Part shown: positions 56,599 through 63,478 of the stretch, piece by piece
Layout: the number at the start of each line of letters is the position of its first letter
How positions within the stretch are numbered: the first letter of the stretch is position 1
Assembly (NCBI GenBank): GCA_030295235.1
Contig: AP026130.1
Span: 248,001-312,000, forward strand
Source: Fistulifera solaris
Lineage: Eukaryota; Bacillariophyta; Bacillariophyceae; Naviculales; Stauroneidaceae
Length of the DNA: 64,000 bases
Direction: 5' to 3'
Made by a program: the position numbers and the translations under genes
The notes under the pieces: generated by a model
What the model saw: the letters and a program-made list of their open reading frames with translations, nothing else
The model's database searches: none
Told to the model about the DNA's origin: nothing

Positions 56599-58621
56599 TT
56601 ACCTCGTCGCCGTCTCATCCGCCCAATCCGCCGACGTAGAGAACAATAAGCCAATCACCATAGCCCAGAATATAGACAAGAATGCATAAATCATTCCATC
56701 GAAACGCATGAGAATGGGGTCAACACCCGCCAAGATTTCCACCACAAAACTCGCCAACGAACTCATGGTACCACCAAATCCATTGATGAACGACACCAGA
56801 ACAATGCTTTCGAGAGGTCCCGGTTCACCCGCGAGCAAATTGCCCAGTCCACCCGATAGCGCACAGGCCAGCATGTTGGACGTAAATGTCCCCAAAGGAA
56901 ACGTCGGTCGCCACGCGTTCAATCGAGAAAGTCGCCAACGCGCCAGGACGCCCAACGGTGAGAACAACAAGCTCAAGGCGAGTTCTTGATTCTTTGGGTC
57001 GTCAAAGAAGGAAAGTGAGGTACATTGTGTGACCAACGCCATGATGAACACGGCCGTGATGATGGCACGGAGCGACGGCATTTGGTCTTCGGTGTGACGC
57101 AAGGGAGGAGCCGTTTCGGTTTCCGAGTCGTCGGGAGCACTTTCCGACTGGTCATTGGCCGCCACACGAATTCCGTAACCGCGACGCTCGTCCCGTTTCG
57201 TCTCAAAGCGACAACGCCAAACAAAGATGTAGACCGCAATGTGTTGTCCGAACCGGTAGGCGATGATGGGGAGCTGCAAGCCCAGCATGTAACCGACGAC
57301 CGCCTTGCCGATCTCGCCTTGCTCCAAAAAAAGTCACCATGGCCGAATTCCAAGACGAAAAGGACGACAGGGCACCACAGAAGCCATCCCGCAGTCCCAA
57401 CATGATATCATCACTCATGGCTTCGGGTGTCGTACCCGCATCCCATCCATCAGCAATGTTCACTCGTCGCAGACGTGAGATGTTCTCCGTCACATTGGCA
57501 GTGACATCCGTAATGATCTGTTCGACTCCGAGCGGATCGTCGGAAGTTGGTTCCGCTTCCTCGGGCTGTGAAGTGTCGCTCGTTTCTTTGCCGGAAACAG
57601 TGCTGGAGTTTGCATTTCCCAAGTGAACGTTTGACATCTGGGACGAAGGGTGTTCCGGTACTCGAGGAGGTGTCATTGTGGTTCTTTGCGATCGTACAGG
57701 TGAATCGGGACATTCTTGCAATTCCAAATCAAACGACATATTGGCTTCTGGTCGATCGGCCTCGGATTGCGGAGAATAAATCCCCGAAGCCAAATGTGGC
57801 TCGGGGAGATCATCATCATCATCTTCGGAATTCCGCCGATATCCGTCGGCAAAGTAATGTTCCATCACATCCACATCTTCCTTGCGGACGGGGAAGAGTA
57901 TTAAACATTTCGACGCTCGTATGCGACGCTCCAATGCCAACAACTGGACATCCCGTAAATCTTCATTTAAATGAACGGGTGGTTGCCAACTGTGAAAGTA
58001 TTTTTGTTTCTTGGGTCGTCTCCGTCGGAGGGTGGGACGAGTCGTCGTTGCAATGTGCAAGCCGTCTCCTTCATCATCTTCTTCTTCCTCATTCGGATTG
58101 TGACGACGATCCCGAATTTCTTCCGCCAAGACCATTTGTTGCAAGCGGGGTGGGGAAAATCGTGTATGAATGATTTCCATCAATCGTTCTCCCGAACACA
58201 GCATCCCCATGAGAAAGCACGACAAACAATTGAGTGGTAATACCACAAAGAGTGGACTGTCGGAATTAAAGACATTATCAAAATTCGCAAACCACGTCGA
58301 TGCCCCCAAACGAAAGACAATCCCGAGTTGCGTAAAGAGCGATAGAATCAAAATATCATCGTACGTGGTCCAGAAATGATGGACGAATTGTTGATCTTCG
58401 TCCGCTTGTGGGTCTTCGGGAGTTTCTTCGGCCGGTGAAGGCTCTTGCCGCTGTCTGGATTGTCGCTGCGGATAAAAGAAACTGTGCACGGCTTCTCGTG
58501 ACGGTTTCGCAATCGATTCTTCAAAATGCGTCGAAACTTCATCGAAATGACTGACGAGAAGATCGGTCGTTGTTGCTGCGTTAGGGCGATTCGTTTCGGT
58601 GGGTGGATTCGAATTTGACAT
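56599..58621 (-). CDS. FEX: FEX/CrcB-type fluoride channel, fused two-domain form with long acidic loop
   Basis: About 673 residues from ATG 58621 (the frame opens at a TTG nine bases earlier). Two CrcB-like halves are present. First half: LFTQLGIVFRLGASTWF, then VVLPLNCLSCFLMGML; after an insertion of roughly 240 residues, LRDGFCGALSSFSSWNSAM and GYMLGLQLPIIAYRFG. Second half: LLFSPLGVLARWRLSRL, PLGTFTSNMLACALSG, VSFINGFGGTMSSLASFV and AFLSIFWAMVIGLLF. The (G)xxGxxSSxSS-type pore segments and GTxxxN motifs are those of fluoride channels; eukaryotic FEX is the fused form. It exports fluoride across the plasma membrane. The large loop in the first half is acidic and Pro/Ser-rich. A run of seven A at 57326-57332 shifts the frame by one base inside the first pore segment. 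Confidence 0.88.
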
Positions 58622-59002
58622 GATGAACAATACTGTTCTTTTGAATTAAACGAGAAGCATTGAGAAGGAAGATGACGATCGTAGGATAGACCTTTGCTTG
58701 GCAATGAAACGAATAATAAAACGGTGTGGCTGCGCGTGTCTCCAACTCCCCCGATCACACACGCTCTGCGGTCCGTTAAATAACGGCACCGTTATCGTAA
58801 TACCGAGCCCAAAGTACTCACAGCGTTGTACTCTTTTCCAGTCCCGCGTGAGTCCCGGCTCACGGAATGAAACACACGACAATTATTAACCGCGATAGGC
58901 CAAGATGCGAACAAATAATAAAAACACAATAACAATTACTGTTGACATCTCTGTATTATTCTCTGTTTTCGATCACAAATACTCACATAAACACTTACGA
59001 TT
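58622..59002. promoter_or_regulatory. Divergent intergenic region (FEX / PUB-domain protein)
   Basis: About 381 bases between divergent start codons. Contains an AT-rich stretch (AATAATAAAAACACAATAACAATTA) at 58914-58938. No gene or fluoride-response motif recognised. Confidence 0.35.
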
Positions 59003-60337
59003 ATGAAGTCTCAAGATACACCATTGAAAGAAGAAGAAGCGAATGAACATCCAGCGGCGCGAAATCCTCCTTCGTATTATCCGCCTTCTCATCATCTTCC
59101 TCCTCCGCCGGGAGTCTTCTATCCTCCTCCTGTTGTACCAGCACAAAACACTACCAGTCCGTTCCACACATCACTACTTTTAGCGACAGGAGGTTTTTTG
59201 GGAATGACGGCGGCCGCGGCGATTCGGTGGTTGAATGGTGAAGATTTTTCCTTACTTCCTCCGAAACAGGACCCACCACCTTCCGTGGACGTCGAAGAAT
59301 TGCGACAACAACAACAACAGCAACAGCAACAACAACAAGTAGATAAAATTGTACAGCGTCTAACGAATGTGTTAGAAAAGCAACACGAAAAACAGCGGAC
59401 CAACGATTGTGTCAATTTGTTGCGAACGAAATCGTCGTCGTCGGAAGATGTCGTAGTACCCCGGTTGATGCAGATACAATCCGAGCTGACGGCGTTGCGA
59501 CAGACACTGCAAGAAAATGAGCCATGGGAACAGCAATTATCGGATACATTAAACAATTTACACGACTGCGTGGAGCATCTTCGAGGGAACACCGTCGATG
59601 ATGGTTCGAATCATCGTACCAACGCCATGACACGCGTCGAACTACCTAAATCATCACTGAATCATCCGAATGAAAACAACAAAGATCCGTCTCCTACTTC
59701 TTTAACAGAATCCGTCCGTACATTGATGGAACAGAACCACCCGGAGGATTTGCGGGCCGGTGTCCCACTGTTGTTTCTCTACATATCCAACCTATTGCAT
59801 CATCCGACGGCACCACGGTACCAAAAGATATTCATGTCAAATGACAGCTTCCAAAAAGTCGATCAATTGGTGGGTGGAAAAGAATTCTTGTTGGTACTGG
59901 GATTTGTGGAACAGGGCACCTATTTGGAATGGCAACAAGACGTGAAGGATCACGGGGAGGTATTACAGTGTGCGACGTCGGCTTTGAAAGTACTGAAAGC
60001 CGTGCCTTCTGTTATGGAACCGGAATTCGTGGAACGAGTCGTTGCGGCGGCGCGAGGAACCAGTTGTCCACCCACACCCACAATCCATACGTCTCATTTG
60101 GAAGAAATAAAAACACCGGAAATCGGTCTAATTGCATCACCACCAAATACGCGAAAACAACATTTTGAAAATCCTGCATTTCCGTTGCTGGATGGGAACG
60201 ATGTTGCTGATAATGATGAATCTCCCGTTTTGCCCATGTCTGCTCAAAGTAACCGAGAGCGGACGACCGAGGAATCGTTTTCACCAATTCGAGATAGCAC
60301 GGGTGATACGGAGGCTACAGATGTATTATGGAAATAG
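59003..60337 (+). CDS. Single-pass membrane protein with a PUB domain (Cdc48/p97-binding type)
   Basis: Intact 444-residue frame. Pro/Tyr-rich N-terminus (YYPPSHHLPPPPGVFYPPP), then one hydrophobic segment (FHTSLLLATGGFLGMTAAAAI, about residues 53-75). An 11-glutamine tract and a coiled coil (about 100-190) follow. Then a PUB domain (about 235-325): RAGVPLLFLYISNLLHHPTA, RYQKIFMSNDSFQKV and EFLLVLGFVEQGTYLEW. The LLxxYIxNLLxxPxxxKYRxI and LLxxGFxE patterns are the PUB signature of PNGase and UBXD1, which binds the tail of the AAA-ATPase Cdc48/p97. The C-terminus is polar. A PUB protein is part of the diatom periplastid ERAD-like import machinery, but no plastid leader is visible here, so ER, peroxisome or mitochondrial membranes are equally possible. 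Confidence 0.78.
   Translation: MKSQDTPLKEEEANEHPAARNPPSYYPPSHHLPPPPGVFYPPPVVPAQNTTSPFHTSLLLATGGFLGMTAAAAIRWLNGEDFSLLPPKQDPPPSVDVEELRQQQQQQQQQQQVDKIVQRLTNVLEKQHEKQRTNDCVNLLRTKSSSSEDVVVPRLMQIQSELTALRQTLQENEPWEQQLSDTLNNLHDCVEHLRGNTVDDGSNHRTNAMTRVELPKSSLNHPNENNKDPSPTSLTESVRTLMEQNHPEDLRAGVPLLFLYISNLLHHPTAPRYQKIFMSNDSFQKVDQLVGGKEFLLVLGFVEQGTYLEWQQDVKDHGEVLQCATSALKVLKAVPSVMEPEFVERVVAAARGTSCPPTPTIHTSHLEEIKTPEIGLIASPPNTRKQHFENPAFPLLDGNDVADNDESPVLPMSAQSNRERTTEESFSPIRDSTGDTEATDVLWK
59305..59338 (+). repeat. CAA/CAG tract encoding polyglutamine
   Basis: Eleven consecutive glutamine codons, mixed CAA and CAG, between the membrane segment and the coiled coil of the PUB-domain protein. Such a tract may vary in length between strains. 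Confidence 0.8.
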
Positions 60338-60380: not shown

Positions 60381-63300
60381 TTAGGCAAAAGGGTCAAACG
60401 GATTCGTGCTCTTTGGCGGAGCTTGTTGAGAAGGTTGCGGAGCACTACTGGTATAACCTGCCTGGTATTGTGGAGTAGGTGCTTGCCCTTGGTTGTAATG
60501 ACTATTGTATCCTGAATATGGTGCTGTTTGCCCGGCGGCGGGGATAGACGGCTGAGCACTCGGCTGTGCAAATCCGTACCCTGCTGAGTTGTATACTGGG
60601 CCGACAGAAGGTGGGACTTGCGGAGGTGTGGAAGGAGCGTGAGCTAAAGGTGCCGCGTTATTTGCTACAACGGAAGGTTGTGCTGCAGGTACGGGGACAA
60701 TGGTTGGCTGATATGTTGTGTCGACTTGTATTGGAGCCTGGGCAGTCCCAATCAATCCAGCTCCGCTTGGAACCGTCCCAGGGATTTGTTGTGTCACATA
60801 TAAGTGTTGGTTAGCCACTTCGGGAGGGTCGGGTTTAGTAACGGTATCGAAGGGGTTTGAACTAGCTACCGGTACCGTTGGTTGGGAAACTGTCATGCTG
60901 TCGAAAATGCCCAACAAGTCATCGTTAACTTGGGGTACCGGCACCGAAGGGGCTGTGTTTGCCATTGCACCTCGCGGGTCGGTAATAGGCGGAATGTTGA
61001 CTATGGTCCCCCGAGCGTTCGGATGCATTGCAGCATGCATAGTATCAAAAGGAACATTGAACCATAACTTCTGATCGCGTGTCAACTGTACTACGTGTTA
61101 GTGATACCGCGTAAGAAAACAGCCACATACCAATTGCCGACAATTACTCACCCGCGGCGCAGCGTTATTCCGCAGCTGCCATCTCCGCTGTGCGCACACT
61201 CGCCGCACATTGAACAGCCGGGACCGATCAACGAGGAGACCATATACGTCAGTAGCCGCATTTCGAACCTGCTGCACTATTTGTCCCCGCATGTTTTCAT
61301 AATTCTTCATCGCTCGGATCTTATCAAGCCCATCTGTTGCTTCCGCAATCACGGCGGTTGGTCCGTGGTAAAGAAGGTTGCGCAAAATCATTAGTGCCTG
61401 GTAGCCGTGTTTCCATTGCATGCCTCGCGAATCGCGAATGCGCAGCCACAGAACCGACATGACATCGGCCAAAATGGTACTGCACTCAAGACACTCCTCG
61501 ACAAGCTGAGCCACAGCTTTTGCGTAATCGCCTTCAAAAGGTTTGTTGGATGTCAAGAGCATGGCAGTGCGACGAGCGTTTGATTGCACTGCCGCTGCTC
61601 TCCTCGACAGACTGCTTTGCGCGAGTTGACGACATACTTTTCGGACATCGAGTAGGCCAAAATCTATTTGATGCCTGCGGTGATAGTAACAGCACTGCAA
61701 GAACAGGGGTGTGTCAGGTGTATTGAGCGGCTGGCGGTTTCGGATTTCTTCGACACGGCGACTGACAAATTCCGCTAGCATTTGTGTCTGGCAGAAATTC
61801 TGCAGTAAGGGCCAAATGGGGGTGCCTTCACCTTCTCCCGCCGATCGTTTGTGGGCGAGATATTTATTTCGATCGAGTACGGCCGCCGAATCGCCCGGTG
61901 AAACAGAGAGATACCAACGAACATCTCCAAACATACAAAGGAAGAAAATGGTGAAAGAAATTCGCGCTTCCTCCTCGGCTGCCTCGTTGTGACAAGATTC
62001 AACATAGATATAGTCCGGTGCCATGGATTTCGCATCCGGTGCTTCCGTCGCGGCTAACTGCACTTCCACTTCTTCCACCTCTTCAACATCATTGCTGTCC
62101 TGGTTGCTCGACGATCCTTTTTTCTGCAAAAACATCTTGCCTTTGTTCTTAATTTTGTTCAAGGTCGTTTTTACGGCTTTCGTGGCTTTGGCCGCCGTTT
62201 CCCCCATATTGGCGAGCGCGGACTCCCCGTACATGGCTTTCTTATCCGCCTTGACAATGTCCACCAGCTCTTGCGCCAAGCACTCGGATGGCGTCGCGGG
62301 AGCACCCGATCCCAGCTGATTTACCATTTGTCGTGGCGACGAAAATTCTCCCTTGACCGTGGTCATGAACAGATCCGGAATGCGCTGATTGACGGTATTG
62401 GCATCCATACCCCGCGTTTCCATGTTGTTGGTGTCCAAATGAATAATAAGAACATCACCCAATCCGTCCGTATAGTCTAAACGGGACACCACGGGCGACA
62501 AAATACCAATCAAGTAGGGATAGGGCGCCGCCAGATACTGCCACAAATGCGGCGGCATGACGGGAATGTACAAATGCTGCCATTGGAGCATGCCTTGCGC
62601 CAGCATGGCGAGAGCCGCATGCGAGCAAGCGGCCAACCGGGTCGGACTATGGCTTACCATGATGACACGACGTTCCGAAAGAAGAGCCGACAAAATGCGG
62701 AGCGCGTGGGCCACACCCACACAGCGTAGTAGGGGTAAAATGGAGTTGCTGGCATTTGCCACGGATTGACTCGACGAGGCGGTCAGTAACGCGGTGGGAA
62801 TCAAGTAGCGATTGAGATCGACGGAAGTAAAGGTGGGAACGGACAATCCCAGTTCCAGTCCTTCCAAAGTTGCGAGAAGAGGAACTCCCTGTTGCTCTGG
62901 GGGTCTCGTCTGATATATTCTCGCCAAATGCTGCTGATGATTGACCAGATTGTGCAACAGCCACTTTTGCGGTTCCGCGTGAGCTTGTTGATACGGCGGC
63001 ATCGTCGCTTGATGGTAGGAAATCGCTTGCAACGATTTGAGAATAGAGGCATAGAGCGAATCGGCACCCGCCGCACGCGTCAATATCACCAGTGCCCGTT
63101 CTCCTCGTCGTCCTACATCGTATCGGGATCGAGCCACCAAATGGGGCGGTAAATACCTTCGTACGTGCCCATGCATGCGGGCGCCCGTACTGAGCTGCAA
63201 CGAAAACGTGAACTGAAGGAAGGGTGTATTTTGCATCGCGTGGTAGTCGTAACGATTGAGGGGTGACGCTCCTGAAGCGGGCGGAGCCGACGTCTGATCG

Positions 63301-63478
63301 TATTCTGGAAACGCAAAACTGGCGACTTGCGGGATACTTTTTGCATTTCTTCCATGAGAGCATCGTCTCTTGCCGGGGACGGCACCCAGAAGGGTTTTGG
63401 GCAAGACGACGAAGCCGCTGGATGCGGAACATCCAAAAACAGATCAAAGAGGGGCAGCGGGCTTGCAGGTGCCGCCAT
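60381..63478 (-). CDS. DENN-domain protein fused to an ENTH-like domain and an NPF-bearing tail
   Basis: Exons 63478-61152 and 61085-60381; intron 61086-61151 (GTGAGT...TACAG). About 1,010 residues from ATG 63478 (MAAPASPLPLFDLFLDV, typical uDENN start). uDENN: LFDLFLDV...VASFAFPEYDQ...FLQFTFSLQLSTGARMHG. cDENN: LLRCVGVAHALRILSALLSERRVI... WQYLAAPYPYLIGI. dDENN: ARISFTIFFLCMFGDVRWYL...PLLQNFCQTQMLAEFV. Then an ENTH/ANTH-like helical unit (about 650-770): VMSVLWLRIRDSRGMQWKHG, ALMILRNLLYHGP, IRAMKNYENM. The tail is Pro/Gln/Ala-rich with two NPFD motifs and a DPFA end. DENN domains activate Rab GTPases; ENTH, NPF and DPF bind lipids, EH domains and AP-2 in clathrin traffic. One frame change lies at the T run 63338-63342. 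DENN is secure; ENTH is likely. Confidence 0.82.

Follow-up and report, generated by a model that had tools for sequence, protein, structure and literature searches.

The window, a 64,000-nucleotide stretch of the Fistulifera solaris genome (contig C11, positions 248001-312000), carries on its minus strand a gene that very likely joins a DENN module and an ENTH domain in one protein and ends in a Pro/Gln-rich tail with NPF and DPF motifs. DENN proteins are Rab exchange factors, ENTH domains bind phosphoinositides, NPF motifs bind EH domains, and DPF/DPW motifs bind AP-2; research on vesicle traffic has long asked how the forming of a coat is linked to the identity of the Rab. Judging from sequence comparison and by analogy with characterized proteins, we see an even chance that the product is a Rab exchange factor of the DENN type that acts at clathrin/AP-2 sites and carries both an epsin-type ENTH domain within its chain and a coat-binding tail.

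Gene structure and homoeologous copies

We searched 51.7 Mb of genome sequence in 61 contigs for domains and copies. A homoeologous second copy of the gene (L009) was found on contig C12, with 3119 of 3478 alignment positions identical (90% DNA identity) and with the same domain order, intron, and NPF/DPF motifs as the window copy. Paired copies of this type fit an allodiploid diatom, and homoeologous chromosomes are described for F. solaris in the available text of PMC5935921; the fusion is probably a single nuclear gene of such an allodiploid. The features of the window copy are collected in Table 1.

Table 1. Features of the DENN-ENTH gene in the window copy, listed from the start codon to the stop codon, with the dN/dS ratio of each coding piece
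Feature	Window position	Strand	Evidence	dN/dS (residues compared)
Whole gene, ATG to stop, one intron; first ~45 codons one base off the remaining frame	60381-63478	-	Frame and copy comparison	
N-terminal 45 residues, separate frame	63344-63478	-	42/45 identical in homoeolog	0.050 (45 aa)
uDENN-like region and DENN	62154-63338	-	Pfam DENN match 62427-62753	0.045 (395 aa; 2 gap columns dropped)
Linker between DENN and dDENN, Lys-rich then acidic	61956-62147	-		0.023 (64 aa)
dDENN region	61647-61955	-	Subthreshold Pfam match ~61746-61805	0.040 (103 aa)
ENTH domain and its upstream helix region	61152-61646	-	Pfam match 61215-61556	0.026 (165 aa)
Intron, 66 nt, phase 0, GTGAGT...CTAAC...CAG	61086-61151	-	Conserved in homoeolog; predicted from sequence	
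Pro/Gln-rich tail, 234 aa and stop	60381-61085	-		0.209 (231 aa; 7 gap columns dropped)
NPF motif 1 (SSNPFD)	60849-60857	-	Both copies	
NPF motif 2	60396-60404	-	Both copies	
C-terminal DPF (end DPFA)	60387-60395	-	Both copies	

On the minus strand, the ATG at 63478 opens a frame of ∼45 residues, and a second frame runs open from ∼63338 until the intron is reached at 61151. Near 63340, a length difference of one base sets the first ∼45 residues of the window copy in a frame other than that of the remainder, a shift that the initial annotation had missed. Downstream of this point, DENN, dDENN, and ENTH share one common frame without a stop in the window copy. Past the dDENN match, the first Met corresponds in the alignment to residue 25 of epsin 1, beyond epsin's first helix, so that a separate ENTH gene would be without a fitting start.

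Each copy contains a one-base indel, which in the window copy adjoins an A run and in L009 falls in a T run within the linker, and therefore neither copy is one intact frame in this assembly. Because the two sites differ and are associated with homopolymers, and because the unrelated epsin pair L011/L012 (frames of 543 and 259 aa) likewise shows single-base differences in A runs, the evidence points to assembly error, which is probably the source of both indels. Single-base differences in or beside homopolymers within conserved frames suggest that residual assembly indels able to break gene models are present.

Pairwise dN/dS ratios between the window copy and its homoeolog were calculated by the Nei-Gojobori method with each piece in its own frame and with a few codons beside the indels omitted. 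All six pieces are under purifying selection, which is strong in the folded parts (omega 0.02-0.05), and the constraint on the ENTH part equals that on the DENN part.

Two neighbors of the gene were also noted. A 448-aa stop-to-stop frame on the plus strand (58991-60337), with a Q run, a start rich in Pro, and a PUB domain matched above the Pfam cut-off (E 6.5e-11), lies tail to tail with the DENN-ENTH gene, 43 bases separating the end of the frame from the DENN-ENTH stop; its start recalls PEX14, as an impression only. On the minus strand, two overlapping frames at 56599-58645 each match CrcB fluoride-channel proteins (Pfam E 5.3e-8 and 9.6e-11); the probable explanation is a single gene for a two-domain channel, interrupted by an intron or an indel.

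DENN and ENTH domains

The DENN core was matched above the Pfam cut-off in the 738-aa piece P0001 (residues 205-313; E 5.6e-26), and it was also matched in the homoeolog (E 1.9e-27). The dDENN match fell below the cut-off (E 0.013 in one search and 0.0021 in another), and no Pfam match to uDENN was obtained in the fusion protein; when the whole genome was searched for uDENN at E<=10, 11 rows were returned, none of them at the fusion locus or its homoeolog, and alignments of the N-terminal region with DENND1A/B had negative bit scores only. A region of fitting size that is conserved between the copies lies where a uDENN would be expected, and the N-terminal 45 residues upstream of it gave no Pfam match. 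In the PDB, the DENN part was most similar to DENND1B (2e-22) and DENND1A (2e-20), with no other DENN chain matched at E<=1; because few DENN proteins have solved structures, this affinity is weak evidence of orthology.

The ENTH domain was matched above Pfam cut-offs both in the 738-aa piece (E 1.7e-12) and in a 183-aa piece (E 1.6e-13), and its best solved relatives in the PDB are epsins (1.4e-6); the assignment of an ENTH fold is made from these sequence profiles. The domain is internal and not N-terminal, lying behind the DENN module without a change of frame. It scored 34.2 bits with epsin 1 versus 25.9-26.1 bits with epsinR, and tepsin was absent among the 16 PDB sequences that matched it at E<=10. 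An ANTH reading of this part was rejected: PF01417 was the sole family match at E<=1 for the piece, and the genome search for ANTH gave two places (on contigs C1 and C2), both away from the fusion locus.

For the phosphoinositide contacts of epsin, we considered six residues, which we take to be R25, N30, R63, K69, H73, and K76. In a HMMER alignment to 1h0a, three of the six are kept in the fused ENTH (N30, R63, and H73) and three are altered (R25 to M, K69 to M, and K76 to Q), the helix-0 residues lying outside the alignment and being uncounted. Judged by these residues, phosphoinositide binding by the fused ENTH is doubtful.

Overall, the Pfam matches, the open frame, and the homoeolog bear out the DENN-ENTH-NPF order that the initial annotation had proposed for this locus. 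Its description of the DENN module as complete is not confirmed, given a uDENN without a Pfam match and a subthreshold dDENN, and of its ENTH/ANTH-like unit the ENTH alternative stands and the ANTH alternative falls.

Intron and coat-binding tail

The splice link from the ENTH part to the tail that had been proposed previously was confirmed as a phase 0 intron with the exact boundaries given in Table 1; in the homoeolog, the intron is also 66 nt long, and the GTGAGT donor, the CTAAC element, and the final CAG are common to both copies. Retention of the intron would lead to an in-frame stop in both copies, so that an isoform without the NPF/DPF tail, and with it a switch between forms, is possible.

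The tail, which is probably disordered and had no Pfam match, contains two NPF motifs and one terminal DPF in both copies, in agreement with the two NPF motifs and C-terminal DPFA first noted in the window copy. In 100,000 composition-preserving shuffles of the window tail, at least two NPF motifs occurred in 0.165% and at least two NPF motifs together with a DPF in 0.008% (8/100,000), in a test that is post hoc in that the motifs were those chosen in the initial annotation after the tail had been seen. Pattern searches of the tail of either copy for a strict clathrin box, FxDxF, WxxF, and DPW returned none, and two patterns that we take to represent AP-4 beta/epsilon binding motifs had zero matches in both copies. 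A stretch at ∼60893-60922 (minus strand), DDLLGIFDSM, is kept in the homoeolog bar one D to E change; it resembles a relaxed clathrin-box-type motif and fails the strict pattern.

ENTH, DENN, and partner genes in the genome

The domain search scored exons one at a time, and the counts it gives are minimum values. ENTH was found in at least four places, a strong pair on contigs C5/C6 (117 bits) and the fusion pair (51 bits). Two ENTH genes were thus found, each in two copies: an epsinR-like gene and the DENN-ENTH fusion. The C5/C6 ENTH is marginally nearest epsinR/CLINT1 (100.3 bits versus 98.6 bits for epsin 1), and the two diatom ENTH parts are identical to each other at 19 of 102 residues by BLASTP. 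DENN gave at least 16 rows genome-wide, with exons counted apart, and the DENN and ENTH lists overlap only at the C11 and C12 loci.

Genes for possible partners are also present. EH domains were found in at least eight places, the AP-2 alpha appendage in at least two, and Ras-family GTPases in at least 60, with exons counted apart. Two of the Ras-family genes were compared with the PDB and were best matched by Rab8A and Rab1B; in this comparison of two Rab genes, no Rab35-like gene was identified. The EH frames examined retain a Trp, which we take to be part of the NPF pocket, and the appendage frame retains an FMQRW stretch, presumably the DPF pocket. In viral and other genome contig collections, tblastn found no relatives of the 738-aa piece among 10 and 16 pattern matches.

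The ANTH search gave a match above the Pfam cut-off in two copies (L015 on C1 and L016 on C2; E 6.1e-7 and 8.2e-5 in the two copies). In the L015 frame, the ANTH part is preceded by a hydrophobic start and then by a long, charged stretch of low complexity. These matches contrast with the absence of ANTH from Chromista reported in the accessible part of PMC3473312.

Discussion

We infer the exchange activity of the DENN-ENTH protein, the Rab involved, its binding to lipid and coat proteins, and its location. On our preferred reading, the protein would be brought to clathrin/AP-2 sites on membranes by its ENTH domain and its tail, in which the NPF motifs would engage EH proteins and the DPF would engage the AP-2 alpha appendage. 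There, the DENN module would activate a Rab, such that the vesicle would depart with an active Rab. It is plausible that the fusion protein couples Rab activation to coat recruitment, and such coupling already has a precedent, not considered in the initial annotation, in DENND1A/connecdenn, which the available text of PMC3785455 describes as an exchange factor for Rab35 that carries motifs binding clathrin and AP-2. The diatom protein would parallel the animal connecdenn/Rab35 system, with the difference that its chain also includes a folded adaptor domain; in the simplest case, it would work like DENND1A/connecdenn with ENTH as an extra targeting part. A coat-linked DENN exchange factor is therefore known already, and the folded ENTH in the same chain is the new part, as judged from searches of open-licence papers.

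DENND1A/B (connecdenn 1/2), which activate Rab35 on clathrin-coated vesicles and are the nearest solved DENN proteins, likewise have a long tail with AP-2-type motifs; the diatom protein differs in its folded ENTH domain, and its tail contains a DPF but no strict FxDxF, WxxF, or clathrin box motifs. Epsins 1-3, which provide the best PDB matches of the ENTH part, share with the diatom protein an ENTH domain and, behind it, a tail that looks disordered and carries NPF and DPF; in contrast, the diatom ENTH is internal behind DENN, its lipid pocket is partly kept, and the tail is without a strict clathrin box or DPW. EpsinR/CLINT1 belongs to the ENTH family reported in Chromista in the accessible part of PMC3473312, but it is the other ENTH gene of the genome that is epsinR-like, by a small margin, and the fused ENTH prefers epsin 1.

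The domains detected by Pfam and in the PDB, the homoeolog, the dN/dS ratios, the kept intron, the NPF/DPF motifs, and the presence of EH, AP-2, and Rab genes make the preferred reading the best explanation, against which weigh the undetected uDENN, the subthreshold dDENN, the altered contacts, the internal position of ENTH, the lack of strict clathrin/AP-2 motifs, the indels, and the finding of no Rab35-like gene in the comparison of two Rab genes. In an alternative reading, the ENTH part would be a remodeled scaffold that has lost phosphoinositide binding and either packs on dDENN or engages a SNARE or an adaptor. The protein would then be a DENN exchange factor that acts at the endosome or trans-Golgi network and owes its targeting to the tail or to its Rab. 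The replacement of R25, K69, and K76 by M, M, and Q, the low Pfam score of 51 bits versus 117 bits for the other ENTH gene, and the non-N-terminal position argue for this, but N30, R63, and H73 are retained, the best matches are endocytic epsins, and the DPF end fits AP-2; we hold it to be somewhat unlikely. The preferred reading could also be extended such that in diatoms, whose group reportedly has no endocytic epsin family, this protein stands in for the endocytic epsin. A protein aiding nucleation of the clathrin coat would then itself be the exchange factor, and a single polypeptide would provide every coated vesicle with an active Rab from the start; we regard this extension as unlikely.

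Tepsin, the AP-4-associated protein, has a divergent ENTH domain, and the fused ENTH might be of this type, in which case the protein would connect a Rab with the AP-4 vesicles of the trans-Golgi network. This reading is favored by the accessible part of PMC12517565, which reports tepsin across TSAR, with AP-4/tepsin alongside AP-1/epsin in all TSAR members examined, and by the sole other ENTH gene found here being marginally nearest epsinR. However, no tepsin structure was among the 16 PDB matches at E<=10, and the two AP-4 motif patterns are missing from both tails; a tepsin-type ENTH seems improbable. We consider it very improbable that two adjacent genes, or a decaying pseudogene, have been taken as one. 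The one-base indel in each copy is what would be expected of such an artefact, but the indels are at differing homopolymer-associated sites and the L011/L012 pair shows similar ones, DENN and ENTH lie in one stop-free frame, the first Met downstream of dDENN falls beyond the first helix of epsin in the alignment, the intron joining ENTH to the tail is kept in both copies, and omega is well under 1 in all six pieces.

Consistent with the earlier statement that no characterized protein is known to have this order of domains, a DENN-ENTH protein was not found in the open-licence PubMed Central literature that was searched; the combination may sit unremarked in protein databases. The main text of a DENN survey (PMC3521125) does not contain the term ENTH, and the main text of the ENTH/ANTH/VHS survey of De Craene et al. 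(2012; PMC3473312) does not contain the term DENN. The latter survey covered 84 genomes, with Phaeodactylum tricornutum and Thalassiosira pseudonana among those named, and in its accessible part reports that Chromista have the epsinR-type ENTH family only, that the endocytic epsin family is opisthokont-specific, that T. pseudonana has no member of the superfamily, and that Chromista lack the ANTH family.

The available text of PMC13276009 reports genome editing in F. solaris. The gene described here bears on the organization of endocytic adaptors in a group for which, in the accessible part of PMC3473312, only the epsinR-type ENTH is reported, and a protein that combines the exchange module with a folded ENTH domain would open the link between coat and Rab to direct testing.
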